This document shows positions 43,623 through 62,600 of a stretch of DNA of 64,000 nt, one piece after another (position 1 is the first letter of the stretch; the number at the start of each line of letters is the position of its first letter). Position numbers and translations under genes: made by a program. The stretch spans positions 12,500,766-12,564,765 of the forward strand of contig NC_049979.1 in NCBI RefSeq assembly GCF_000003815.2, read 5' to 3'. The notes beneath the pieces are model-generated. The model worked only from the letters and a program-made list of their open reading frames with translations, did not search any database and had not been told where the DNA came from. This DNA is from Branchiostoma floridae. Lineage: Eukaryota > Chordata > Leptocardii > Amphioxiformes > Branchiostomatidae.

Positions 43623-43871
43623 TTATTCAAGATCCACGAGCAAATCGTCTCCCTCTAGACTCATGCCCTTTTCCGCAGAGATTTTCTTGACGACACCATC
43701 GATGGGCGCCTTGACGACCATTTCCATCTTCATGGCACTCAGCACCACCAGGGGGTCACCTTTCTTGACCTTGTCGCCTTCTGTGACCTTGACGTCCACA
43801 ACGGAGCCGGGCATGGGCGCTCCGATGGACCCCTTCACACCCTTCAGGGCCTTGGGGTGGAAGTGCATCTC
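43623..43871 (-). CDS. PC: PC last exon: biotinyl-carrier domain
   Basis: 83 codons including TAA. It encodes the whole swinging-arm domain, from [20 protein letters not shown] through the biotinylated Lys in SAMKME to [15 protein letters not shown] and AMKM are the conserved flanks recognised by holocarboxylase synthetase. Confidence 0.95.
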
Positions 43872-46800
43872 CTGAAAAGAAATCACATTTATTTTCTTTA
43901 TTGGCAAAATGTGCAACAAGACATTACAGAGACAATGAAGGCAGCATAGGCTGATGGCTCACATAAAATACAGAAGACAACATGTAATATCTAGAGAACA
44001 CACAAAGTTGTACAAAAACCAGATAAACACAAAAAATACTAATGGCTCATTTCTAAAATATAATAGCAATAACTGTCAATAAGGAGTAGCTAAGCTGGAA
44101 AGGGCAGTGACTCTTTTTGATGTTAACGTATACAAAGTATGAAGTGTTCACATGATAGGGAAAAGATAGCACTCAACCAGTAGTCTCACAGTCACCAAAA
44201 GTTACCTCCATATAACATTCATGGAGGTTATATTTTCACTAGCCTTTTTGTGTGTGTGTGTGTATGTCAGCAAGATAACTCAAGAACGGCTGGGTGGATT
44301 GGTTTCATACTTGGTGTGTTGGTAGGGTGTGATTGCCAAACTCTAGTTTCATATTATAGCTTTCAGTACCATAAAAGAGCAAAACTATATCAGTATAGAT
44401 ATCTCTGTCTAAAATCTGAAATTTTGAAGATTTTGTTTGAAGAAAGTGGTCTTTATCAAAAACAAAATGGGCATGGATCACCGCTGCTGGCTGTTGTGAA
44501 GCCCCTTCAACCACCGTTGTCGCGTGTCCTCAGCGAGTGAGTAAAGTGAGGTCTTCATCATTCAGCAAAACTATTTTTTCAAAGCTTAGGACTGACCTTG
44601 AGCGCCTGGTTGTCCTTGACCAGCACTGACCGCAGCTGACCGTTCATCTCGAAGAAGACCTCCCTCTGACCCATCTTGTTCAGGTCTCCCACGGCCAGCG
44701 GCTTGATGGACAGTGTCTTGCCTTTCTCGATGGCAACCTAAAAAAATTTCAAATGAGGGATTTCATTACTCAAACATTCAAAAAGTCTCAGTCTCTGGTA
44801 AAATCATGTACATGTATTACAATAAGTCCAATCATAAGAAGCTATGAAAGTGTAGTAAAAAGTTTAGGAATTCAAATTGCAGCTGTTTTGCTGCTATTGG
44901 AAAGGGTTGCAGTCCTCATGACAAAAATTAACTCTTCAGGGAGCTGATTATATAGACCATTTCTTACCCCACACTCCTCAGCAATCTTGCGACCAATGAG
45001 GAAGGGTCTTGTCTTTATCATTTGTCAAGCCTTTTTAGTGTTATGATAATCCTGTTTTCCGCAGCAAGGAGCCACATCTGGCTGTCTGTAAGTAATAAAC
45101 CCTCAGTACCTAAACAATTTCTTACCTCACACTCTTCAGCAATCTTGGGTCCCGTGAGGAACAGTCTTGTCTCCAGACAGTCCACAGGACCAAAGTCACT
45201 CCTGAAGTCTAAGTACTCGTCCAGCACGGTGGGGTAGAGCGCAGCGCTCAGGACGTCCCAGTCCTTCACAGGAATATTCTTCCCAAACTTCTCTATGAGC
45301 TGGAGTTTCAGTGCGGCAAAGTCCAGCGGCGGCATGGACTCACCAGGCCGGCCGGTCACCTTCTTCATGCCCTTCAGGATCTAGGGTAGAGAGGCCAGAC
45401 ATTTGTTGGGTTGCACACTAATATATTATAAAACAGGGCTAAACCTAGAAATCAAATCTAGAAATGGAGGAACTGCTGACTTTTGACCTGAGGGCCAGGC
45501 AACCACCTCCAAGCCACGTTAAAACAGTCCCGTCAGTGTTTACTAAGTTAACCCCACCCTGTTCTCAGCAACCATTTTTCCTCACTCCCTTCAGTAGGTG
45601 CTGAATCCAGGCTTGACTGTACTTCATGCTGCATTTGCCACACTTGTAACAGGCCAGTTAAGTGAAATTGATTTGAATCTGATTCCTGTGCCTATACTAA
45701 CCTTTGACCTGAGGGGTTCCGGGAAGCCACCATAGGGCTCTCCAAGGTACCCCTGGAAGAACTCGATGACGGAGCTGGGCAGGGACAGCTCCTCTGCGCG
45801 GTCCAGCACCATCTCTGGAGTCAGCTTGTTCTGCACCATGAACTGGGCCAGGTCACCTACCACCTTGGATGATGGCGTCACCTGGTGAAAAGTGTTACAT
45901 GAGTTATATTAGCTAAGATATAAAGGTCCTTAGCCCATTGTGCACTGAGAAGAAAGACATACAGGGAATTTCAGTATGGCTGCACATGTTCAAAGGCTGC
46001 AGCTGCAAATAGTCTAACGATGAAAGTAAAATGTCTAAACCTGTGTCAGTAAAGAAGGAGTTAATTATCTTCAGCATAACATAACCAACTGTATCCAAAA
46101 GATGACACGACTTCATGCCAGAGAGGAAAACATCAAGACATGACAGATACCTTAATGACATCACCGAGAAGCTTGTTGGCCTCTGCATACGCCTTCTTAA
46201 TCTCAGGAAACTTGTCGGCCAGCCCCAGGCTGTAGGCCTGGAACTGCAGGTTGGTGTACTGCCCGCCGGGGATCTCGTTCTCGTAGACGTCTGCATTGCC
46301 GCTCTTCATGGAGACTGTGCACTCAAAGGGCGAGTACAGCTGTCTGGTCTGCTCCCAGTACGCGCTGTAGTCAAACACCTTCTCCAGGGGGATTCCTGGG
46401 AGAAAGCAGCAAAATGTCTTTAAGTTAAACATGTTCCTTTCCCATATCAACTTGTAAATTACAGAGTGGTCTGTTTCCAGTATTTGCTGTAGTCAAACAC
46501 CTTCTCCAGGGGGATTCCTGAGAGATGACAGCAAAATGTCTTTAAGTTAAACATGTTCCTTTCCCATATCAACTTGTAAATTACAGAGTGGTCTGTTTCC
46601 AGTATTTGCTGTAGTCAAACACCTTCTCCAGGGGGATTCCTGAGAGATGACAGCAAAATGTCTTTAAGTTAAACATGTTCCTTTCCCATATCAACTTGTA
46701 AATTACAGAGTGGCCTGTTTCCAGTATTTGCTGTAGTCAAACACCTTCTCCAGGGGGATTCTTGAGAGACGACAGCACACAAACATTAAACTTGAACAAC

Positions 46801-49800
46801 AAACATTTAACAGAAAAGAAGAATACACCAATAAAACAACAATTTACTAGACTAAGATTACTATTTCTTCCCTAAATAGGAAATATGACATCTAATCTAA
46901 TAATTCTACTAGGTGTCATAATACTGCCACATAAAAAAAAATCATTGTTATAGAATCCTTCTCAAGATTGTCTTGAACACCTAAATATTTGTATATTATA
47001 CTATATACATGGTACCTCACGATTACTGATGCTGCATTGGCAGGGCTCAAAATACCACCTGCATATGCAGGTTAGTGCAGGTAAAATTGGAGCTTGTGCA
47101 GGTATTTCTGGTGTCTACATGCACCTAACCTGGACTGGGTTTTATACATAAGTGTTCTTTGATGTACATGTAGGTGTATATGAATTGTTATTAGCTGCAT
47201 TGGATGTTACTTATGATTACACCTATAATTTAGTAGAAAAAATAGCAATGGTTCCTGAGCAATTTTAGTATGATCCATACTTCCTAAATTAAGAGTGGTG
47301 CCGGTAAAATTTGTCTGGTGCAGGTAATTTTCAATGTTACCTGCGCCAGTGCAGGTATGCAGGAAAAAGTATTTCGAGCCCTGATTAGTATATCCCATCA
47401 ACTCACTTTAAGTTCAAGTATTTTTTTCTCATGTGGAAGTATTATGGCATCAGAGGAAAAACATGTCTCTCACCTGTATCCAGCTCAGTCCCCTGTAGGG
47501 ACGCCACCAGGGCTCCCATGCTCGGCTGGGACGTCATTCCAGACATGGAGTCCACGGCAACGTCCACCACGTCTGCTCCGGCCTCAGCACACGCCAGCAT
47601 GGAGGCGACGCCCGCGCCCGACGTGTCGTGGGTGTGCACGTGGATGGGCATGTCGGGGTACTTGTCACGCAGGGCGGAGATCAGGATCTTGGCAGCCTGC
47701 GGCTTCAGGAGGCCAGCCATGTCCTGGGCAAAATAAGAGGAAACAAGACCTTGAGTATATCACACCTTTAAGTATAATATTCAAAGACCGTCTTCTTTAT
47801 TTGCAAAAAAGCTTTGATCATCGATCACTTCCTGTCAGTCTACGCATATCATAATATTCTTGACCTACAGTGGACATGACTAGCACATGGAAAACAAACA
47901 ATTTTGACTTTAACTTCCTGTAATTCTGGCAGCTCTAACTCCTGTCAAACTGACTGAAGACAAACCTTGACACTGTATGGATAAAAAACTGATGCTGTAT
48001 AGATGTGAAACTGACAAACCTTGATGCTGAGAACGTGCGTCCCTCCCTTGATGAGTTCGTCCGCCAGGTTCATGTAGTACTTCAAGTCGTACTTCGTCTT
48101 GGTTGGGTCGGACACGTCGCCAGAGTAGCAGATGGCAGCCTCCACGATTCCTCCCGCCTGTCCTGCAGCCTCCATGCCCAGGATCAGGTTCGGCAGGTAG
48201 TTCAGAGAGTCGAACACACGGAAGACGTCCATGCCTGTCTCCTTGGCAACTTTGCAGAACCTGGATAGAGGGGAAAGAAGGAACAGGCAGGCACTGCATG
48301 CTGCAGTGACTCTAAGGATCCCAAAGTTCATCAGTGGAAATGGAGGAGGATTGGCAGAAAAAAGTCTCTTATTCAGTGACGTACCAACCTGATGAAACTA
48401 TCACAAAGGCTGGATAGAAGAGCTCACACATGAAACTTGTGAGGATAAACTAAGGAACCATAGAGTCAATCTGGCTCTGAAATAGAGATATTCTTGAGTA
48501 GCCCACAGACCTAGTATGTTATGTAGATACTCACTCAAAGATGACATTGTCGGGGTAGCTTGTGTAGCCCACACCGTTGGCTCCCCGCAGCAGCATCTGG
48601 AACGGGATGTTAGGGATCCGCTTCCTCATTGCCTCCAGACGCTCCCACGGGCACTCCTTCAGGAACCGCAGGGCCACGTCAAACGTCGCACCTGAAGGGC
48701 AGCAATAAATAAAAAAATCACATCTCCATTTCAGTAGTTCCTGTATGGCCTCCCAATGTTCCCCAGACCATGATTGGGAGTAGTTCTTCATTTATGTATT
48801 CCTTTATTTTTAGTACAATGCTAAACTTTCTTCCGACACAAAGGTATACACAGATCTTTCATTGACCACTTCTTCAAGATCAGCCCTGATGACCAATCAC
48901 TTCAAAACATTAACTCACAAGAGTTACAGACACATGATCTAATTATTAACACATGATCTTGTTGATGTGTGATGTCAGCAACTGGTCAAACATGCTGGGA
49001 AGTTTAAAATGCCCACCATCTCTGTTCATGCAGTGATGGCTGGAGTGCCTTGGTCATCAGTATTGATCCTGAAGAGGGTGACAGTGGTCGTTGATGTGTG
49101 TATATCTTTGTGTTGGAAGAAAGTTAAGCACTTTACTATGATTACTACGAACACAGATGAGCTAATCCGTGTTTCTCTATTTTTGTTCGATTGTTTGTAT
49201 TGGCTGTTCCCCTCACCTCCCCAGTTCTCCACACTGTACATGTTGGAGAAGTTGTGCGCCACAAAGGGCGCGATGCGACACAGGTCATACGACCGGACAC
49301 GGGTGGCCAGCAGGGACTGGTGGGCATCTCGGAATGTCGTGTCCATCAGCAGCAGGCCCTTGTGGTTCCGCACGGCCTTCGCAAAACCTTCTGGGCCCTC
49401 CTCAACGAAAATGTCACGGAAACCTCTGGGTAAAGGCTGGTCTGGAAGGAGAAAATGAGAAGAATCAGTTAATAGTTTCATTGGGTTGGTGAATCAGTAT
49501 TCAACACAGCTTTCTGAACACAACCAATACGTAGGCAGCTGCCAACATGTAACTTTCTTCAGAGCAATTCTGACTGGTTCTTCAATACATGTAATGCTTT
49601 ACACTGCAGCTAGGCACTGCTGCAGCAGTTCCAAATGTGACTGTGTTTGTATCCCCCTCTTCATGGTTCATGACTAAAAATCTACTCCAGTTCAAGTACA
49701 TGTAACATTTAATTTAGAACCTTCAGTATTGCTTTGATTAATGTGACAAATGGTCACAGAAACATTGATACCTGCTGGGTGATTGATTTTATATTGGTTG

Positions 49801-52800
49801 TATACAAACAACTTTGTTAAACAAAAAAATATGAAAATACGGAATGATAGATTCTCAACATCATCATTCTATGCACATCAATGTTTGCTTTCAGGTTCCA
49901 ATTTATAATCAATCAGCATGAACATGAATTCCATATTCATTCTCAAAACACAATGCAAATTTGCCTATAAGGTCTTTCTATATTACATGTAAATCTATTA
50001 ATTCGAAGCATTCTTGAGTCATATTGAGCTCGCAAGATGCAATTATAATTACTAGTTTGCTGTGATTTTTCCTAAGGTTTACAATACAGCCATTCATTCA
50101 TGGTGGGTTTTTTTTCAACAGTGAGATTAAAACTGGTTGAGCTGCTGAAGAGAGTTATGATTATTGAAGACCAAAAATCAAGTCACATTCTCTATGTTGA
50201 AGTGTTATCTATCTCTGTCTAAAGCCCCAGTCGCATACCTTAGATTCACTTGTGATCAATGTAAGTATGCTCTTATAACTTAATGATATAATTTGTGACT
50301 CCTGCAACATTTGTGACCACTGTTAGTGACCAATTCTACCCAAACCTATGTCATGAAATCCCCATCACAGGTAAATCTTATGATGTGTAGTACTGGGGCT
50401 TAAATTATTGATTATCCATATTAAAATCAGCATGAAAAACAGTTGACAAGGGTTTGCCTACAGCTCCTTTTTGCTAGAATGTTAGCCCACACCAATATGC
50501 CTTCTAGTTATCATACTATATTTACAGTAGAAATACAGCAAGAGGTCAACATGAAAGCATAGGGCTGGGAGGAATATCTTCACTCCCTGAAAGCGTGTAA
50601 CATTAAGTACAGGCTTTCATCAGACTATTTTTCATGTTCATCTTCCAGTTATTTTTCTAAATCTGAGACCAAACGACTGGAATTGGTGGGACCTTTCTTT
50701 GGCTGATCACCCTTATTTTGCTCCCTTGAAAACGGAAACATTCAGTGGAAAACTGTATGATCCTGTGGATGGCTTTTTAAACACACAATCAAAATCAAAA
50801 ATAGCAAGAAAATTAGTGTGCAAAAAAACAACAACATGAAATCATCAGTCAACATAACATGGTGTACAGATGCACACGTGGAGAACAGATGCTTGAAGCA
50901 GTATTAAGGTAAACCACAGGAAAAGAAGCAAATCAGGTTAGCGAATCACCTTGCCTGGAGTTGTCCTGGAATGTGAAGATAGCGTGCAGGGCTTTCTCCA
51001 GCTTTCACTCTTTTTCCGTTTTCTCAATTTCATAGAGCAAAGCTCCATTATATTGACTGCCGAAGGCCTAGCCAGGTACCCAAACCTATCATAGCTGACA
51101 ATTCTCTTTCCATTGATGTGGGCTTAATTGCATCATACTTACAATAAATTTTACTCTTTCATAATGCCCTGGCACATAACGTCACTTTTATTACAAAAGT
51201 AATTTTGTGGAGAGGATGCATTAAGAGGAGCAAATTTCAAATGGCTTTGTCTTCATTCTGAAGGTTTTGTGACGCTGTAAATAGCCCGATGAAAATGACA
51301 CGTGTGTTAATTAATTATGCATCAATGGTTGAAGCTTTTGTCCATTTTTGGCAGCACAGGCACAGAAGGATGGTTTCTGGAGAAAGCCCTGGTAGCGTGA
51401 TTAAGAGCAGATGAGAAGCATACAGATCAGACATTGCAAAGCTGTGTGGACGAAAGCTTGGCAGAAAGCAGAAATTAAGGCAGCACAGACCGCTTGTGGT
51501 GCATGTCGATTCTCTGGAAGATACCATGGCACATGCCTGCAAAGCTGGTGTATTACACCGAAGGGCAGTTATACTGGCTATACATGATTACAGATAAAGA
51601 AGCTGCTGTGTTACACCAAATCTGCTATACAATTACAGATGGTAATCATGGTAGATTTCAAGTTCAATGTATTTTGGAGCATTTTGATATGAGTCATTTA
51701 GATTGAAACAATTGTGTTCTTTATAGATCTACTTTGATATTATCATCTTTTTGCCAGCATTACATCTGTCATAGTTAGAGTCACCTGGTCTTCACACCTA
51801 CTTTTAAAGGAAATCCAGTTTATTTAACACTATAAAAACTGAAAACATAATAACAAGTCTGAAAAAACATTAAAAAAAGGAGAAAAAATTATGTTCTTTG
51901 GAAGGGACATGAACAATGAACAGATTTGATATTTAATCACTGTGTTATGCTTGCTATAGTATGTGATTGTATGATGCATTTCCATTCTTGGGAAATCAAC
52001 CATTCTTCAACATCCCCTAATTAGTGATTAGTAAGTAGAGTCATTGTTAATAAGCACCACAGCATTGATACATCCAACCTGGATATCACAGTCCCTTCCA
52101 TACAATATCATTTCATCTGCACTCAAAATACCACCTGCATATGTTGGTAAACTATGCAGAGGAAAGAATAACTGCACAGGTATTTTGAGCCCTGCTTAAG
52201 GTACACACACATCCCTGCTTGTGCTTCCACTGAGCCACGGCACAGCAAGAAGGACAGCTCACCTCTTGTCTGTCTTTTGTCTGATGGGTCTGGAATGGTG
52301 GGAGCCCCAAACACACACAATATGGGTGACAGGAAAGTAGAGTTAGTAACCAGCCACCAACATCAATAACATATATATTACACATGTACATGCACATACA
52401 CCAAGGACTTGTAAGATCAATACTTTGCTAGCGTACAGTAGCAGTAGTAATATCCAGTATATTATCAAACTGCTGTGTATATAAACATACATTGAAACAT
52501 AAACAGAGTACATAGAAATACCAGAGCACCATGTCAGCACCAAGAGAGTACTTTCAATTCTAAGTGATACCTGTACTGATCATGAATGATGAATTAAGGC
52601 TTGTCGTAAAGCATCATATAATCAAATCTTATATCTGTTTTTTCCAAGTTGATGGAGGCATATCTAGATCTGTATTTGTTACACTGCTATTGTTCTCAGA
52701 GCAACTGAGTGGGGTTAAACTCTGAATGGTTACATGAAAACCAGTAATATATATGCTATCTTCTATTTGATAAACAGTACCAGCATTTCACTGCAAAATG

Positions 52801-55800
52801 AAGCTTTCTGTCAGTCATATCAGTAGTGTGTAATATAATACAACATTGTATTGTGTTGTTGCAATCAAAAGATAATCATACAATGACCTGCGACAAATGT
52901 ATCCACATTGTAAAACACACAACAGTTGACACAAAAATTCAGTGTGATCATGTATGCTATGTATCTTAGTGTGTTTGTTCTGTAGTTTTCCTGTTTGTCA
53001 CATGATATTGCCTTTGTTCAAAGGCAATGAACTAGAAAAAGTAATTTCAGCGATTGGAGTGGTTACTAACCAAAGGGCACTGGTGGCACCACAGGTGTGA
53101 TCTCCGCGGGCATGAGTCCGGTGGGGAGGGGGGTGCAGGGCCCGTTCACCATGATGTGTGCGATGTAGTACAGCAGCTTCTGGGCGCGGTTGCGGCTGGG
53201 GATGAAGTTGAAGAGGCCGGGGTTCTGGTCGATGAAGTGGGTGGAGATGGCGCCGGACAGGAACTCTTCGTTGTGCAGCACGTTTTGGAGGAATGGGATG
53301 TTGGTCTGTGGAAACATGTCAAGACGATGTTACTGTAAATGTTGGCATGTTCCTGGTGGTTTCTTTATGCGGCTTTTGCTGTGACAGCCAATGTATAGTT
53401 ACTGTAGTCTCTTTGCTTGTAGCTGATTTCTTTTTTCTCAAAGGCGGGAAAATAGGACAGCAGTAATTCCCAAGATCACAATGCTTAGCATCCTTCAGCA
53501 TCCTTCAAAATTAAGGGTGTCCCAGTGGCCACAGCACTAAAACCACTAAAACTTGGACAGCTTAAAAAATCACTTAGGGACTTTTGTGGAGAACAGATTT
53601 CTAAATCGTTTTCCACTTAAAAGGAGGGCTAATACCGGTAGTGACTAGAATGTAAACAAGATTACCAGTAGTTCATCCTCAGTTGATTGCACACCAGGAC
53701 CTTTTTGAGATAAATTCTGCAAAATTCTGCAACACTCAGCAGCAACAGTATGGGAAAAATTGATTTTGAGGTCTGGTCCTTACCTTAACGCCGCGGATGC
53801 GGAACTCGGAAAGCGCTCTCCTCATCTTTGTGGCGGCGGAGCGGTGGTCGATAGCGTGCGCAATCACCTTGCACAGCAGCGAGTCGTAGTGCGGGGAGAT
53901 GATTGCGCCCGCGAAGGCCGACGCGCTGTCCAGACGGATCCCCATGCCCTCTCCACTCCGGAATACCTGAGGGAAGGCAGAGCAGGAGCAAGCCTTAGGT
54001 TAGATTAAACTAAGGGTAGACAGAGAGATAGGCTGGGTTTAAGTTTCTATAGATACATACCCAGGCTACCCACCTCCACCCTGGGTTAAAATTGTGGCAG
54101 TACTCTTGGCTGCCTATGCCATGGTTAGAATAGGTAGAAAGACCCAGATAACCCCTTCTCTATCTTGGGTTAAAACGTTAGATATAGACAAACTCATCTT
54201 TAGCCTACCTGTACTAGAGTTAGAGTAGATACAGACCTTGGTGACTCACCTCTAAGCTGGGTTAGAGTAGATACAGACCCAGGTTACCCACCTCTACCCT
54301 CGGTTAGAGTTAGAATAGATACAGACCCAGTTTACCCACTTATATCCTATCTGTATCTGTATCTATATAGCCGGTATAACCGCCGTTCTGCGTAACACAC
54401 CAGCTTCGGTAACACATCGGTATCCTGTTTAGAGTTAGGGTAGACACAGACCCAGGTTACCCACCTCTATCCTGCCAGTGTCGGGCTGGAAGTTCCGCCC
54501 TGGGTCCTCGGTAGTGACCCGACATTGGATGGCCGACCCGTGGATGCTGATGTTGTCCTGGGACAGACCCAGGTCAGGCAGGGTGTTCCCCTGGGCAATC
54601 TTCAGCTGAGACTGCACCAAGTCAACCCTACAGTACAGCATCAGTGTGCATGAACCATTAATACTGCAGTATTTGGGGGAAGAGAGTCATGTCCATCCAT
54701 GCAAGAAGCATGCCCGGATGATGATGATTTGAGGGAAAACACTTCATATACATGTATACTGAGATATCATCCTTAAGTGGTTCAAACAGCAGAAAAGAAT
54801 AACTGACATTTTTAAAATTTCAAATCTAAGACACAAGCAATAGAGCTGCAATGACACAAATGCTCTTAACCACTGCATTTGGACCCAGAACCTTTAGATT
54901 TTAAGTCAACAACTTTAACCACAAGACCTTGCCACCTTCTTTTGGAAGAACCGACTTAAAGGCAACTCTCATTTCACAACTTCTGGCCCCATTACTTTTA
55001 CAAATGAAATTTAAGTGAAAATTATGACAAAAATTAAACAGCATACATAAAACTTCTGTTAGGCTTGAATGAAGCACTTTATGACGAATATTTTGTTTTA
55101 GGAATAACAAGACAACTGACCCGGTGACCTCCTCGGTTACTGTGTGTTCCACCTGTAGTCTGGCGTTCACCTCGATGAAGTAGAACTTCCCCTGCTCCTG
55201 GTCCAGGAGAAACTCCACCGTTCCCGCGTTCTCATAGCCGACAAACTTCGCCAACTTTACGGCGTCCGCCAGGATGCCCTCCCTGATGACGGGGTCGAGT
55301 TCCGGCGCTGGGGCGTACTCCACCACCTTCTGGTATCGTCGCTGGACTGAGCAGTCGCGCTCAAACAGGTGAACAACATTTCCTGCCTTGTCACCTGCAC
55401 CGGGGAGCAAGAGTTACAAATCAGTGCGAATGTGATCTGAGTTCAGTTTAGCTCAATAGCTTATCTATCTTAAAAGAGAAGACAGTATGTACACTATTTA
55501 CCGGTTCCTTGTACTATACTATGTACAACGAACTCTTGAAATACTGCTGTTCCAGGTCCGAAGATCCCATGTCCAACACAATAGCGAACATAATCAACAC
55601 TGTCTTCATCAAAGGTGAGCTAATGCCTGCTCTAGGGCAAGGCATTCTGATCCCTCTCCAAAAGCCAGGGAAACCGTGTGGTCTGTGCAGCAGTCTCCGA
55701 CCTATAGTTCTGCTAAACGGACTGAGGAAACTCTTCTCCCTCATCGTGTCAGAACGTTGCAAGCCACAGGTAAACCTCTACCTACCAAGATCACAGTCAG

Positions 55801-58800
55801 CCTACCGTCAAGGCCACAGCGCAGCTGACATAGTCTTCACTAAGAGGATCCTCGCCGACCTAGTTATGACAAAGATGTGGGACACTCACATCCTAGGCAT
55901 TGATCTAAGCCGTGCCTTTGACACCGTGGATAGAGCTCGGCTGATATCGGTGTTGAGAGATGTGCTGAAGGACGACGACACAGTACGTATGATCCAGGCT
56001 TTGTTATCAGACACAAGCCTTGCCGTGCGTGTCCAGGGAGAAGCAGCCCCTCACTTCCCAGCAACCATGGGCTCGCCTCAGGGTGATAGCTTGAGCCCCC
56101 AGCTGTTTAACGTCTACTACGAGGCAGCCCTCCGAGACCTGCGAAGATCCTCCCCACCCATCCCTACTCAAGACAAGCGGCTCAAGATACCAGCCGAAAC
56201 TCAGTATGCCGATGACTTAGACTTCATCAGCACTTCTAGTCACCATTTGGAAAAGATACATGAGGAAGCCTTGAAGATCCTACCAGAGTGGAAACTACAT
56301 GCCAATGCAAGTAAGACAGAGCGGGTCCACATCTGTCTAGAGAAGGACAGGGAAGAGGAGGAATGGAGAAAAAGCAAGTCGGTAGGCTCAAGACTGGGCA
56401 TCGCAGAGGACATAGAAGAAAGAATACAACTAGCAAATTTGGCCATGAGAAAGATGTGGAAAATGTGGGGGACAAAGCACATATCGTTACAACTTAAGTT
56501 AAAACTCTTTGAAGTGTACGTTATACTCGTGATGCTTTATAATGCCGGGACGTGGGGACTCACCGAGCAGTTGGCATACAAGATCGACATATGGCACCGA
56601 AAACAACTCCGACGTTTCACAGGTCACTTCCACCCCAACCACATTAGTAACAGTAAGCTGTACAGTAAGTGCCAAGCATCACCATTACAAAATGCAGTGC
56701 ACCGTCGCAGATGGTTCCTCTTCGGCCACATTCTCCGTATGCCACTGGACTCGCCGCCGCAAAAGGTCCTCAACGTCGCGTTCAGTAAGAAGCTCAAACC
56801 AAGGCTAGGAAGGCCACGTGAAGGCCTCCTCAGTAGTCTGGTAGACGACTGCATGCTACATCTCAACCAGAACATTAGACTTGAGACTCACATGTTAAGA
56901 TACCTAAGGGAAACAGCAGCAAACAGAAGACGATGGGAAGAATTGTACAAAGATCTAGACGTACACTGATTTGGTTATCGATGACTATCTGACTGTCTAT
57001 CTATAACTAAGAACAGTTATTATTATTATTAGTATTATTTGTACTATGTATTACCCTAGTTGTCTTTGACAAGTACTGGTACATATGTTGCATTGGATGT
57101 TCTGTCCTTAGGAGAACAGAAGCTTGCATGTTGGGTAGGAGACAACAGGGATTCACACAATTTGTTCAAACAATACAATTTGTTGTATATCAAGATTTAT
57201 AATCCAACTGTGAGCTAGGCAAAGCTAGCTTGGGAACAAGAAATAAACAATGATGGAACCAGCATTGGTTAGCCACGGGTATACATTTGTACTTCAAAAA
57301 TACCTGCACAGCTAAAATTTTACATTGATTCCACTAAACTGCCTGTGCAGGTGATATTTTGGACCATGTTTTGACAAAAAAGAGGGAACTCCTCACCTAG
57401 GATCTGCACCTCAATATGTCTGGGCTTCTCTATAAACTTCTCTATAAAGAGGGAACCGTTGCCAAATGCTGCCAGGGCCTCTGAGGTTGCACGCTGGAAG
57501 TTTTCATTCAGCTCCTGCCAAAAATGAGGAGGATCATACATAAATATCATATAGCTCAATATCTGAAACAGTAAAAAACTATGTAATGTAAATTCATTTG
57601 GTTTAGTAGTGGTTCATTTCATGGTGGGAGGAAAAATAAGATTATCGCTGTGTTTAAGATTTGCAGTTCTGTAGTATAACAATACTTATACAATGGAGAC
57701 ATATTTGCAGCGTCATGAATTTACATGAATTTCATGAAGTGCTATATTCATAAGTCATCATTGGCACCATAGTACAATCCACGGGACTGAGTGAGTGATC
57801 ATGAGTAAGTACAATCCATAACTATATGGATATGAGGTATGTAATGGTGCATTTTCTACATTACACAAAAGCACAATAACACATATCACCTCTTTGTTCC
57901 TGACGATACGCATGCCCCTGCCTCCCCCACCAAACGCAGCCTTTAGGATGATGGGGAAGCCATGCTCAGAACAGAACTGCTGTGCCTCCTCTAGTGTCGA
58001 CACTGGGCCATCCGTACCTGGTACCACCTGCACACCTGTGGGGAAAATCACAAACAATTCAGTAGGTGTCAAGTATCTAGTGCTTATGAAGTAAGCGATA
58101 TTCCACTACCAGTATAGTGGACTAGCCCCCTACTGCAGTGGTCTATGTAGTACAAGGGCTACAAAAATGGAGATAGCCACCACCCCTATACACTGAAGGC
58201 TGTGGGGTGGATTTTAACTGAACTAACTAATGACCTGGGCAAGCTGACAACAAACTATCTTGAGATTTATCATTTGTAAACAATTTTGTCTCTAAAAATT
58301 TACAACTTGATCAAAAGCTAACGATACATGTCCACAGATTTCCAATGTTCCATACAGTTATAAAAGGTATAATAAAAATTCACCTGTGTTGGCATATGGT
58401 AGATGAAATTATAGTGAGTCTTCAATCGTTTTTCTTTATGGTATTTGATTTGATTAAGAACTTCAGCTCAAACCTGCAGCGATGGCAATCTGTCTGGCCT
58501 CCACCTTGTCTCCCATCTTGCGGACGATCTCCGGCGCCGGGCCGACGAACCGGATCCCTGCATCGACAACCGCCTGGGCGAAGTCTGATCGCTCTGACAG
58601 GAAGCCATACCCGGGGTGGATGGCGTCTACATCGTTTTCCTGAACAACATAAGTTCATGGAACGTTTAAAGCATGGTTTTGACAACAGAAATACAAAAAC
58701 ATATTAGACACATACATCTAATTAATAATAGACTTCAAAAGATACAACTACAAAGTTAGACTTGAAAAGAACAAAATGTTAGACTACAAAGTCAATATAG

Positions 58801-61800
58801 GGTAACTTAGTTAGTGCATGTATGAATGTTTGTAGAGAATCTTAATTATGTTTCAGTTCTGATAACAGTAACAAACTCAAAGATTTCAGTACAACTGTTG
58901 TGCCATTGTGTGAAACATCAAAATAATCTCAATGTCAATAACTGTACAAGTCTGAACCACAGTATCAGTAATTGCCTGCCAAAAAAATAAAAAAAAGTAG
59001 CACTCTTCAGGTACAACAGTTATGTCTGAAACTACAGAAAAAATACATGTCCTTCTTCTGAAATATGAAACAGGTTGGTTAGAGATGAAGAGGAAAAGGT
59101 TAAATCAAGCCTTCAAGTTGTTGTAGTTGCGAGCTTGTTTTGTTACTGATTTATTAATTAACAAAAATAATGCATGAGCCTGGCTAGTGACCCAGTGTTT
59201 TGTGTGTGCATTTTGGGTATATGTTTGTAGTTTCAGCAGTTGAAAACAAACATCAACATGCTGGTGTTAAGTACATGTAGTTGGACTTTGCATTTTACCC
59301 TCATTAACTTTTTATCACATCCTGTTTACACATGATGGTGAGTAGCAGTCAAATGTCAAACCAAGTTTTGGTAAACAGGGAAAAACTATACTTAAGGGTA
59401 GAGAAGTAAAACACTTTTACTGCTAACTGTAAGTTCATCCATGTTTATGGAGACTTAATTTCATAAAGTGTATTATTACTGACAGAAAATTTGTTATGTT
59501 AGCAAGGTGATGAGTTCCCATCAGAATGGCCATTGCAAAAACAAAGGCACTACAAACATTTAATGATTTACAGTACTTCAATACTTATAAATGAATAAAT
59601 CAGAAGGATGATTACTTGAACCTTCCTTTCGGAACAAATTGACAAACAAAAGATGGCCTTGAGTCACCCCTACAGTGACGCAAATGTACAGATCTTGTTG
59701 TTGTTTTTATTCACTGTTGGCCCATGTTATTGTTCTAAAGTCCAGTTCACCATGTCAGTAACCACTGCTCCCAAAGGTCAAGCCCCTGGCCCAAACCTGA
59801 TGTGTATGGGCATACACTTATTCCTGACAAGTGTTTCACACATAACACCATAGCCTCCCAACCTTCTCCAGACCATGCTTGAGAGTTAGACATGTCCAAG
59901 GTTGCCTACTGGGAGATAGTCTTCTTAAGTCTGCGCCAGCCGGTTATAAATTTGGACAAATCAAAGCCAGGAAAGTCACATCCTGATTGGATGTGATCAG
60001 AAGCGTGGACTAGAGTTAGAACAGCAGGGATTCCAGGCTACTCCCAACCCAGCGCCAACAGGGAAAGGTCCTGTATATGTGACAGAGGTTTCTTTGGTGG
60101 TTTCATGATAATTTTGTCTTAACTCCAGGCCACAGCTTGCATTTATGTCCCAGCATTTGAGACTGGATTTCAAACGACTACCGGACTGTAACATTCTAGC
60201 TTGAAACTGTCAATGGCATCAACTGACCAAACCAGAAAAAATCTTTCCTTTTCTGTCCTGTTGATGTCTGCTTTGTCCGACTGAAACAGCCAGCATTTTG
60301 TCAGCAGATGCTATGAGCAAGCCAAGGTTGACCAAGTAGCCAAACGTGTTTGCCAAAGTCAAGGCGAATGATGTTTTAAAGAAATGGTAAGGAAGGCAAA
60401 AGAAAACCTAACAAACTAAAGCTGTAAGTTGGAATCATAAGAAAAAGAAAGCTATCTTATGGCATGACAACAGCTATTGGTACTATCAGCTAATGTAAAA
60501 TGTCCAATCACATTGTTGGCAATTGCAGTATTGTAGTTGAAATATCTAAGTTGACAGTTGAATGTTAGATGCAACAGAGTTATTAACTATACAAAAACAT
60601 GCAAAAACAACATGCATGATAATTTTCAATTGAATAACATATACAATGTGCATACTTTTTTACATCAGTTTAAAAGACTGTAAATTCCAAAGGAATAATG
60701 CTTAGCTACCAAACAATAAAGAGGATGTGATGAGAAAAAAAACGAAGAAAGAAAAACAAGCAGCATGCCCGGACAAAGCACATACAAGTCTAGTACGTCA
60801 CCTTCGCTATCTGAATATACTCTGGGATATTGAGGTATGCTGCCACCGGCGGTAGGCCCTTCCCTATGAGGTATGCTTCATCAGCTTTCTGTCTATGCAT
60901 GTGCATTCTGTCTTCCGTAGAATAAACCGCCACAGTACTGATTCCAAGTTCGGTGCAGGCTCGAAAAACGCGGATGGCAATTTCACCTGTTTGGAGAGGA
61001 CAGACATGGAAATATCATGTTAGCACACACGAATATACCTATTAGGCCTAGAAAAATTGATGTTGTGTTTCTGATAACTGTCCTAAAAAATAGTGTCGGT
61101 AGGTACAGATTCTTTTTTTTCTTTAATTTTCAGCCAAAGATTTTAACAGCATATTCTAAATGTGCATGCACAATTTTCTATTGCAACAAAAATGAGTAGA
61201 ACATGTTGGAAAATGATGTAGAACATTTCGCCACTCAGATCGAAAATTTCATGTCCCTTGCCAGTACATGTATCAAAAATAATGGTCGGTCAGGTAACCA
61301 GAAACACAAAAATTTTTTCTAGGCCTTACATGCGTCACACATACATGCCAGACTATGTCCTCACCTTAGCTATCTCTATGTATTCTGGTATGTTCAAGTA
61401 TGCAGCGACAGCAGGAAGGCTCCTCCCTATGAGGTAGGCTTCGTCTGCCTTCTGTCTGTACGTCTGCAGTCTGTCCTGCTCGGAGTACACGCCCACCGTG
61501 CTCATGCCGAGCTCGTGGCAGGCGCGGAAAATTCGGATGGCAATCTCACCTGCACATCCCAAAACAAGACCCTGTCAAACAGGTGGCCAACAGGTGTCAC
61601 ACTAGGTCATCTTTATCCATGGGGTAACTTATATCTAATGTTTGCAAAGGCAGGGTAATTATAATTAAGGCCATCAAGTTGATGGACGGTGGTTTCAAAC
61701 TAAAATATTTTTAAAATATTTCAATTCGAAACCACTGCCCATGTCCCTAAATACTAGTACCCTGTATTAAAAACAATGGATATAGNNNNNNNNNNNNNNN

Positions 61801-62600
61801 NNNNNNNNNNNNNNNNNNNNNNNNNNNNNNNNNNNNNNNNNNNNNNNNNNNNNNNNNNNNNNNNNNNNNNNNNNNNNNNNNNNNNNNNNNNNNNNNNNNN
61901 NNNNNNNNNNNNNNNNNNNNNNNNNNNNNNNNNNNNNNNNNNNGATCATACTTATGAAAATGTATGGTACTTCATGCAATAGGATGGCAAAATACAGTTA
62001 ACCTAATTCATGACTTTTGATGCTTCTTCACTGAATCTGCAACAAAATTTTCGCACTGTTTTGTGCACATCTCTTGTCCTGAGAAATACTGGAAGTTGGT
62101 GTTGAACTTCCATAAATGACCGATATACTGATTGAAGTCACCAGTGTCAATAGAGCATACCTAAAAATATATAATATAAGCCTACAACCACTGAATAGAT
62201 GTATCTGTCCTGATACCCTGTAGATTAGAAATAAATAGCACAATCCCCTATCCTCACGGCCATGTAAGGATACCATTGACAGGTCACAAAAGACCTGCTG
62301 TTGGCCACGACATCAATTACCACCATATCTCAAGTGGATGGAAGGATGCCTGCTACTACGTATATCTGTTATGTACACTACTAATATACAATATCGCTCC
62401 AATAAGACTAGGAATATCGACTTACCTCTGTTGGCGACCATGACCTTCTTTATGGGTTGGTCAGTTTGTGTGGCCGTCTCAGGCTGTGAGGAGTATGTCC
62501 TGCACGCGGCTCCCCCCACGGCCCGGGCATGGCTGGTCACGCGGAGCTGGGCCTGAGCCACCCGCTGTACACACGCCACGGGGGACTGCAGACGGAACAT
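43623..62600 (-). CDS. PC: Pyruvate carboxylase, mitochondrial, complete gene
   Basis: Coding exons in order: 62600-62426, then 61549-61365 or 60986-60802, 58639-58474, 58035-57890, 57514-57397, 55394-55121, 54627-54465, 53966-53784, 53305-53071, 49441-49217, 48691-48535, 48260-48020, 47723-47474, 46395-46151, 45881-45702, 45380-45126, 44737-44597, 43871-43623. All phases agree, giving 1195 residues (human 1178). The presequence is Arg-rich ([20 protein letters not shown]). Biotin carboxylase has [18 protein letters not shown], the ATP-grasp [10 protein letters not shown], and [17 protein letters not shown]. Carboxyltransferase has [20 protein letters not shown] and the metal-binding [11 protein letters not shown]. 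Biotin attaches to Lys ~1161 in SAMKME, 34 residues from the end as in human. The enzyme makes oxaloacetate from pyruvate, bicarbonate and ATP in the mitochondrial matrix. An acceptor at 62625 implies an upstream non-coding exon. Confidence 0.96.
44203..44560 (+). mobile_element. Helentron-like fragment with palindrome and (GT)n
   Basis: ACCTCCAT...ATGGAGGT forms a 5' palindrome at 44205-44229. It is followed by a (GT)n run and AACTCAAGAACGGCTGGGTG with GGTTTCATACTTGG, the same plan as the array at 662-7854 (palindrome, pyrimidine block, then a sequence like AACCGATTGACTTGAAATTTGG). The 3' end is not identified. It lies in the last PC intron. Confidence 0.4.
44968..45012 (-). pseudogene. 45-nt partial duplicate of a PC exon end, in frame
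   Basis: It reads [15 protein letters not shown] followed by a good donor (gtaaga). It duplicates the end of the upstream exon at 45126, [15 protein letters not shown]. It is open, 45 nt long and phase 0-0, and preceded by an AG, but its pyrimidine tract is weak. It could be a decaying duplicate or a rarely used cassette. Confidence 0.5.
46328..46770. repeat. 122-bp tandem array duplicating a PC 3' splice site
   Basis: The block GTAGTCAAACACCTTCTCC, GGGGGATTC(C/T)T and about 80 bp of adjoining intron recur exactly 122 bp apart (CTCC anchors at 46382, 46504, 46626, 46748). The first copy is the real start of exon 46395-46151. The three others carry the acceptor and about 60 nt of exon sequence, but those read into a stop. 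Confidence 0.9.
47041..47383. mobile_element. hAT-like MITE, CAGGGCTC ends (second copy)
   Basis: It begins CAGGGCTCAAAATACC and ends GTATTTCGAGCCCTG, inverted to each other, with the same ACCTGCA-rich interior as 26060-26392. The flanks show no clear 8-bp duplication. It lies in the PC intron just upstream (genome left) of exon 47723-47474. Confidence 0.75.
52123..52194. mobile_element. Fragment of hAT-like MITE
   Basis: CTCAAAATACCACCTGCATA and CACAGGTATTTTGAGCCCTG are the two ends of the 47041-type element with most of the interior deleted. Confidence 0.6.
52263..52289 (-). CDS. PC: Candidate 27-nt PC microexon (DPSDKRQTR)
   Basis: It is flanked by cattccag and gtgagc. Phase 1-1 makes it insertable between exons 53305-53071 and 49441-49217 without changing frame, adding DPSDKRQTR in the linker between biotin carboxylase and carboxyltransferase domains (after VVPPVPF, before [11 protein letters not shown]). 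It is too short to confirm by homology. Confidence 0.4.
54000..54465. repeat. Degenerate ~50-bp tandem repeat around a PC 5' splice site
   Basis: Variants of CAGACCCAGGTTACCCACCT plus CTACCCT(C/G)GGTTAGAGTAG recur from about 54050 to 54470. The rightmost contains the true donor of exon 54627-54465 (AG/gtgggtaacctgggtctg on minus). The others carry similar pseudo-donors inside the intron. Confidence 0.65.
55500..57045 (+). mobile_element. 5'-truncated non-LTR retrotransposon with intact RT ORF, antisense in PC intron
   Basis: An uninterrupted frame, 55509-56969 (486 codons), encodes reverse transcriptase: [68 protein letters not shown], the catalytic [22 protein letters not shown], then [11 protein letters not shown] and a C-terminal [14 protein letters not shown] and RPREG. 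This last block is found in several non-LTR clades; I do not assign a clade. The tail has (TTA)n near 57018-57040. The N-terminal endonuclease is missing. It lies between PC exons 57514-57397 and 55394-55121. Confidence 0.85.
57295..57362. mobile_element. Small fragment of hAT-like MITE
   Basis: AAAATACCTGCACAG and CTGTGCAGGTGATATTTT form a short inverted repeat like the ends of the 47041 element, with a ~35-bp centre. Confidence 0.4.
58640..60801 (-). other. PC intron, 2.2 kb, no recognised feature
   Basis: AT-rich sequence without conserved ORFs or clear repeats by eye. Confidence 0.5.
60802..60986 (-). CDS. PC: PC alternative exon 2b (biotin carboxylase N-terminal segment)
   Basis: 185 nt, phase 1 in and 0 out. 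It encodes [38 protein letters not shown] and [20 protein letters not shown]. Splice sites are aacag/GTGAAA and AAG/gtgacg. It is the distal member of a duplicated pair. Its sequence ([20 protein letters not shown]) is the closer of the two to the vertebrate enzyme as I recall the family, and its third codon positions are more A/T-rich than in 2a. Confidence 0.85.
61045..61325. mobile_element. Harbinger-like MITE between the two alternative PC exons
   Basis: It begins GGCCTAGAAAAATTGATG and ends TTTTTTCTAGGCC, inverted, with TTA on both flanks (61042-61044, 61326-61328). It is the same family as 24187-25016, with TTGTGTTTC at both ends and GTCGGTAGG inside. It makes up 281 of the 378 bp that separate exons 2b and 2a. 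Confidence 0.8.
61365..61549 (-). CDS. PC: PC alternative exon 2a (biotin carboxylase N-terminal segment)
   Basis: 185 nt, phase 1 in and 0 out. It encodes [38 protein letters not shown] and [20 protein letters not shown]. Splice sites are gtgcag/GTGAGA and AAG/gtgagg. It aligns without gaps to 2b with 14 of 62 residues different. Most synonymous positions differ, and codons end mainly in C or G. Confidence 0.88.
61786..61943. other. Assembly gap (158 N)
   Basis: A run of N in PC intron 1. No known coding segment is missing, because exon 1 and both exon 2 forms join in phase across it. A further duplicate exon inside it cannot be excluded. Confidence 1.

Follow-up and report, generated by a model that had tools for sequence, protein, structure and literature searches.

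A candidate splice switch in lancelet pyruvate carboxylase: a conserved exon pair beside the predicted acetyl-CoA contact

We analyzed a stretch of 64,000 nucleotides from the lancelet Branchiostoma floridae (NC_049979.1, positions 12,500,766 to 12,564,765; here called the window), the minus strand of which carries a complete pyruvate carboxylase (PC) gene with its ATG at 62600 and the end of its stop codon at 43623. The second coding exon of this gene exists in two versions, 2a and 2b, and these are almost certainly a real pair of mutually exclusive exons. By structure they form such a pair: they are adjacent and homologous, are of equal length and have equal flanking phases, and no functional protein results from using both or neither. 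As judged from sequence, the best overall explanation, and in our view a probable one, is that the pair acts as a splice switch similar to that of PKM and tunes acetyl-CoA activation at the interface of the biotin carboxylase (BC) dimer. The parts of the gene on which the argument draws are as follows.

62426..62600, minus strand: coding portion of PC exon 1, starting at the ATG, with an N-terminal extension and then VMVANR; ends in phase 1 with donor GAG/GTAAGT
61365..61549, minus strand: alternative exon 2a, 185 nt, 62 residues; 2a-type segment present in deposited proteins P0001 and P0002
60987..61364, minus strand: intron between 2a and 2b, 378 nt, with candidate branch point CTAAC
61039..61328, minus strand: dispersed repeat of 290 nt inside that intron, resembling a miniature inverted-repeat transposable element, with inverted ends; the intron measures 88 nt without it
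60802..60986, minus strand: alternative exon 2b, 185 nt, 62 residues; 2b-type segment present in deposited proteins P0003 and P0004
58474..58639, minus strand: PC exon 3, joined in phase 0 by either 2a or 2b
43623..58035, minus strand: remaining PC coding exons up to the stop codon
52263..52289, minus strand: in-frame linker microexon, 27 nt, encoding DPSDKRQTR; present in P0001, altered in P0003 and P0004, missing from P0002

A preliminary description of this DNA, made from its letters, had reported two adjacent 185-nt exons at these positions, with AG and GT splice sites, phases 1 and 0 and 14 residue differences, and we found all of this to be accurate. Each exon is preceded by AG and followed by GT, and each is joined by exon 1 in phase 1 and joins exon 3 in phase 0. 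The two agree at 137 of 185 bases (74%) and differ at the other 48 (26%), and their translations align without a gap, with 48 of 62 residues equal and 14 different. In a tblastn search with a PC guide sequence, both matched guide residues 7-68 (E = 5.9e-21 for 2a and 8.5e-24 for 2b), so that chance similarity is excluded, and tblastn found no third copy of exon 2 within the 64-kb window. Full-length PC of either type is recognized by the equivalog family TIGR01235 (PC, single chain, EC 6.4.1.1; cut-off, 1114.45 bits), with 1863.7 bits for the 2a form P0001 and 1870.9 for the 2b form P0004, these scores being those of the deposited lancelet proteins and not of the window's own gene model.

The reading frame favors a product that contains a single copy. 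A transcript that includes both exons is interrupted at codon 161 by a stop 121 nt inside 2b, which bears out the earlier statement that double inclusion ends inside the second copy, and skipping both exons leads to a stop at codon 137. We propose that one of 2a and 2b is chosen in each transcript, and that frameshifted transcripts containing both or neither would be removed by nonsense-mediated decay.

Both versions were found again in deposited lancelet proteins. When the 2a segment was used as a protein query, two PCs came far ahead of the rest, P0001 (141 bits; from a Branchiostoma floridae x Branchiostoma jap... hybrid, the name being cut in the record, and labeled "isoform X2") and P0002 (140 bits; B. 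belcheri), both of which carry 2a. These were followed by P0003 (111 bits; B. lanceolatum "isoform X1") and P0004 (109 bits; B. belcheri "isoform X1"), both of which carry 2b and rank first when the 2b segment of P0004 is used as the query. None of the 116 other matches listed, of 3075 hits, was 2a-like by score (all at or below 109 bits), and 45 of the 116 were inspected residue by residue. Each of the four lancelet proteins found (all four being gene models) carries either 2a or 2b and never both. The window gene and P0001 show 5 mismatches over the aligned part. Within exon 2, like pairs differ at 1 of 62 residues (P0001 and P0002 for 2a, and likewise P0003 and P0004 for 2b), whereas the three unlike pairs compared differ at 14, 14 and 15. 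Between the two B. belcheri proteins, P0002 and P0004, there are 14 substitutions in exon 2, 9 residues of the linker that only one of the two has, and a garbled stretch (P0002 residues 972-985); the two are otherwise identical and look like two readings of one gene. Twelve of the 14 differences between 2a and 2b of the window are common to this B. belcheri pair. The best explanation is that the tandem duplication predates the separation of the sampled Branchiostoma species. The preliminary description had proposed that lancelets use mutually exclusive duplicated exons to make two isoforms of PC and had called for a search of other Branchiostoma; at the protein level, that search yields 2b in B. 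lanceolatum and both versions in B. belcheri, and the proposal gains support from the frame logic, from the conservation of both versions and from four protein models with one exon each, three of them labeled X1 or X2.

It could be argued that two haplotypes or two gene copies were placed in tandem during assembly, as might be suspected from a 158-nt run of N at 61786-61943, between exon 1 and 2a and close upstream of the latter. We consider the chance of such an artifact, which the preliminary description had named as something that would overturn its reading, to be negligible. The 48 base differences among 185 exceed the allelic level, and BLAST of the introns flanking 2a against those flanking 2b revealed no real similarity; a divergence of 26% together with dissimilar flanking introns means that the exons are not two haplotypes. 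Moreover, the locus is single. When the 513-Mb assembly (431 contigs) was searched with the 2a protein segment, two matches were obtained among 3 scored candidates, both at this locus. With the whole stretch as DNA query, 40 matches were scored: the locus itself and 39 others, the query ranges of which all fall in the 2a-2b intron. One genome copy (L006) has both ends in common with the 290-nt repeat in that intron. The recurrence of the same two exon versions in proteins of other lancelet records, and of a second species in particular, weighs strongly against misassembly.

How one exon might be chosen over the other was considered from the splice sites. The 2a acceptor is the weaker (10 of 16 pyrimidines, and an AG already 20 nt before it) and the 2b acceptor the better (12 of 16, with no AG in the 50 nt before it), while the 2a donor fits the consensus at 8 of 9 positions and that of 2b at 7 of 9. 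None of these values falls outside what the other sites of the gene show (acceptors with 9-15 of 16 pyrimidines; nearest AG at 20-76 nt). Three known means of enforcing exclusivity were rejected for this genome. Steric interference, as described for OGDH, involves a distance from 5' splice site to branch point of less than about 50 nt (PMC7969005); here 345 nt separate the 2a donor from the candidate branch point A, assigned by motif only, and 55 nt would do so in the 88-nt intron of an empty insertion site. Incompatibility between U2- and U12-type sites does not apply, both exons being GT-AG with U2-like donors (GTGAGG and GTGACG), and a distant branch point such as that of OGDH is ruled out by the 50-nt AG-free zone upstream of 2b. 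The likeliest scheme would be one of regulated competition, perhaps with 2b as the default. The RNA of the 2a-2b intron folds with a z-score of -2.6 (3 of 100 shuffles fold as well), and the ends of the 290-nt repeat pair with each other. We also observed that exon 2a starts with GTGAGA, and that the junction of exon 1 with 2a (61550) recreates a donor-like GAG/GTGAGA; re-splicing from this junction to 2b is possible in principle, although the motif may be a codon coincidence. A self-complementary stretch (BLAST self-hit of 61 nt, 82%) lies at 61682-61742, in the intron upstream of 2a.

An alternative view of the same facts is that splicing mainly sets PC dosage, by partitioning transcripts between productive forms (2a or 2b) and frameshifted forms (both or neither) that are lost to decay, with the protein difference secondary. 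Double inclusion and double skipping do both give early stops, and with the candidate branch point so distant and the repeat inserted in the intron there is no steric bar to double inclusion. However, the protein difference between 2a and 2b is itself conserved between species, and we consider dosage as the principal role to be highly improbable.

To place the 14 differences in context, we aligned the four lancelet PCs with 141 other animal PCs (the 45 of 116 other rows inspected from the 2a search and all 96 new rows from the 2b search), which comprise 87 distinct 62-residue segments, are drawn from best hits and are, by the names given (some rows carry none), mostly from insects, fish and molluscs. 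Ala20, His31 and Pro47 (exon residue numbers) are present in 141 of 141 of these proteins, and 2a has Gly, Tyr and Ala there; Ile16 is present in 140, and 2a has Met. Exon 2a also departs from Val7 (139 of 141) and Met30 (136 of 141), and in the window it has S44 where 140 of 141 have Gly. Exon 2b, for its part, has Thr and Glu in place of Glu24 and Gln25, each of which is found in 140 of 141. Residue 29 is Gln in 42 and His in 99. The deviations of 2a and 2b thus fall at separate sites, and each copy has changed different conserved residues.

Both copies bear the marks of constraint. As the preliminary description had noted, most synonymous sites have changed while the protein was kept: synonymous changes are found in 27 of the 48 codons for the same residue and at 14 of the 22 fourfold sites that can be compared. 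Between 2a and 2b, the nonsynonymous divergence (dN) is 0.13 and the synonymous divergence (dS) 2.7, which is saturated, by NG86, and 0.14 and 1.25 by YN00, so that the calculation it had suggested gives a dN far below dS. We consider that a functional difference between the exons has very probably been maintained by selection. That one exon is instead a decaying or nearly neutral leftover, rarely spliced and without function, seems very unlikely to us. The candidate would be 2a, which has the poorer acceptor, has more conserved residues altered than 2b and, in the window, has lost the Gly at residue 44. Yet the reading frame of 2a is intact and its splice sites are usable, P0001 and P0002 disagree at only one of its 62 residues, and dN is much lower than dS; apart from this exon, the two deposited 2a proteins are PCs of essentially full length.

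What, then, might the choice of exon alter? In Staphylococcus aureus PC (SaPC), the carbonyl that contacts the adenine of acetyl-CoA is that of Ala47, which belongs to a region at the interface of the BC dimer, and the BC dimer is altered on acetyl-CoA binding (PMC5059739). Exon residues 1-62 align with 13-74 of SaPC chains such as 3ho8_A, 62 to 62, if the chain index is taken as the residue number; the alignments to human, Geobacillus and Lactococcus PC are likewise gap-free and contain the same KADE motif. By this alignment, SaPC Ala47 falls on exon residue 35, four residues after the His/Tyr difference at residue 31. Six of the 14 differences fall within residues 24-31, shortly before the Lys34-Ala35 pair that aligns with the adenine contact. 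Exon choice would alter the N-terminal part of BC, most densely just before this pair, and since the differences are densest beside the acetyl-CoA contact, the isoforms should differ in acetyl-CoA activation and in coupling of the BC dimer. That allostery of acetyl-CoA or of the BC dimer is mainly what distinguishes 2a from 2b we regard as somewhat favored.

The preliminary description had placed the isoform difference at or near the dimer interface and had drawn attention to the residues around RACKELG; the Arg and Glu of this RACxELG helix we take to be dimer contacts in bacterial (Escherichia coli) biotin carboxylase. Both residues are identical in 2a and 2b, which rules out a simple dimer-helix explanation; the nearness to the interface holds, in the form of the six differences at residues 24-31 beside the acetyl-CoA contact. 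The allosteric ligand site would be a sharper statement of the difference than the dimer interface.

Several observations count against a specialization of both exons for acetyl-CoA control. Lys34 and Ala35 are the same in 2a and 2b, and any effect on acetyl-CoA would therefore be indirect. As many differences are clustered within residues 24-31 in 3% of random placements, which makes the clustering suggestive but not strong. At more of the 14 sites, it is 2b that matches the animal majority, and the 2b form scores slightly above the 2a form on TIGR01235. The Glu25 of 2b is found in one other animal PC (P0142, with Asn-Glu at residues 24-25) and in the PCs of Geobacillus and Lactococcus, in which these residues are Lys-Glu and Arg-Glu. 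With 2b near-ordinary and its Glu25 found elsewhere, the claim that both copies are specialized is weaker than the claim that 2a has diverged. In addition, S44 and E59 of the window 2a are not found in B. belcheri 2a, and "isoform X1/X2" is an annotation label. Finally, 8 of the 14 differences are found elsewhere than in residues 24-31 (at residues 7, 12, 16, 20, 43, 44, 47 and 59). Among these are A20G and P47A, at positions invariant in the 141 animal PCs, and residue 12, which is located between the Arg and Glu of the RACxELG helix, and they would suit truly mutually exclusive exons with some other purpose, such as setting the affinity of the BC-BC dimer, allowing tetramers of both 2a and 2b subunits, affecting stability or binding a partner. 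We regard this as unlikely, though worth keeping in view, given that the differences are most concentrated next to the acetyl-CoA contact, where H31Y, at a position with His in all 141, is also found.

Within the allosteric explanation, one more specific, and tentative, possibility is that splicing toggles PC between two allosteric types, the segment common to other animal PCs having been divided into two specialized versions, 2a retaining Glu-Gln and lacking the invariant His, and 2b retaining the His and lacking Glu-Gln. As part of that same tentative scheme, one isoform might need little acetyl-CoA or respond differently to it.

Two further features of the gene were noted. A 122-bp tandem repeat (46345-46777, minus strand; 3.5 copies, 96% match) consists of the acceptor region and the first ca. 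50 nt of the PC exon 46395-46151; its three upstream partial copies keep the exon's reading and then reach an in-frame stop, and two of them keep the CAG acceptor and could serve as decoys. In the PC intron 57396-55395, on the plus strand (55452-56969), an open frame of 505 residues that runs antisense to PC matches the RVT_1 reverse transcriptase family (85 bits; cut-off, 29.6), contains a QYADDL motif and, to judge by this match, is a retroelement fragment.

PC is usually treated as a single enzyme under acetyl-CoA control. A literature search for a PC exon pair, including mutually exclusive exons in Branchiostoma, found no account of one (most subscription papers were outside its reach), in keeping with the preliminary description, which knew of none. 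The pair is genuine and conserved and apparently undescribed; isoforms X1 and X2 are already in deposited records, without discussion as far as this search shows. A conserved exon pair beside a regulatory site would amount to a natural two-variant experiment on the acetyl-CoA activation of PC, and two proteins differing at 14 residues make the allosteric hypothesis directly testable.

Comparable arrangements are known from other genes. The helminth coq-2 gene uses two mutually exclusive exons to alter the core of a metabolic enzyme (PMC8659336), as we propose here, except that the coq-2 pair changes substrate choice rather than allostery. The duplicated exons 3/Ab of U2AF1 give rise to frameshifted by-products that are removed by decay (PMC5224494), but U2AF1 is a splicing factor and not an enzyme, and its exons differ at seven residues. 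Another example is OGDH, also a mitochondrial carbon enzyme, the mutually exclusive exons 4a/4b of which yield Ca2+-sensitive and -insensitive forms; its branch points, which in humans are 25-41 nt from the 5' splice site, enforce exclusivity and prevent intron insertions (PMC7969005), whereas in lancelet PC the candidate branch point is far away and a repeat has been inserted. A further parallel is PKM, with a mutually exclusive exon pair in another enzyme of pyruvate. The region of its exon 10 (exons 9/10 specify PKM1/PKM2) is near a subunit interface, and PKM2, unlike PKM1, can be allosterically controlled, for example, by fructose bisphosphate (PMC6420622). The enzyme, the domain and the ligand are different in our case, and allostery, known for PKM, is inferred for the PC pair. 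If it is true, the pair would give lancelets a PKM-type means of switching pyruvate carboxylation by splicing, analogous to that of PKM1/PKM2 in glycolysis, and would suggest that splice control of pyruvate use has arisen at more than one enzyme in chordates.
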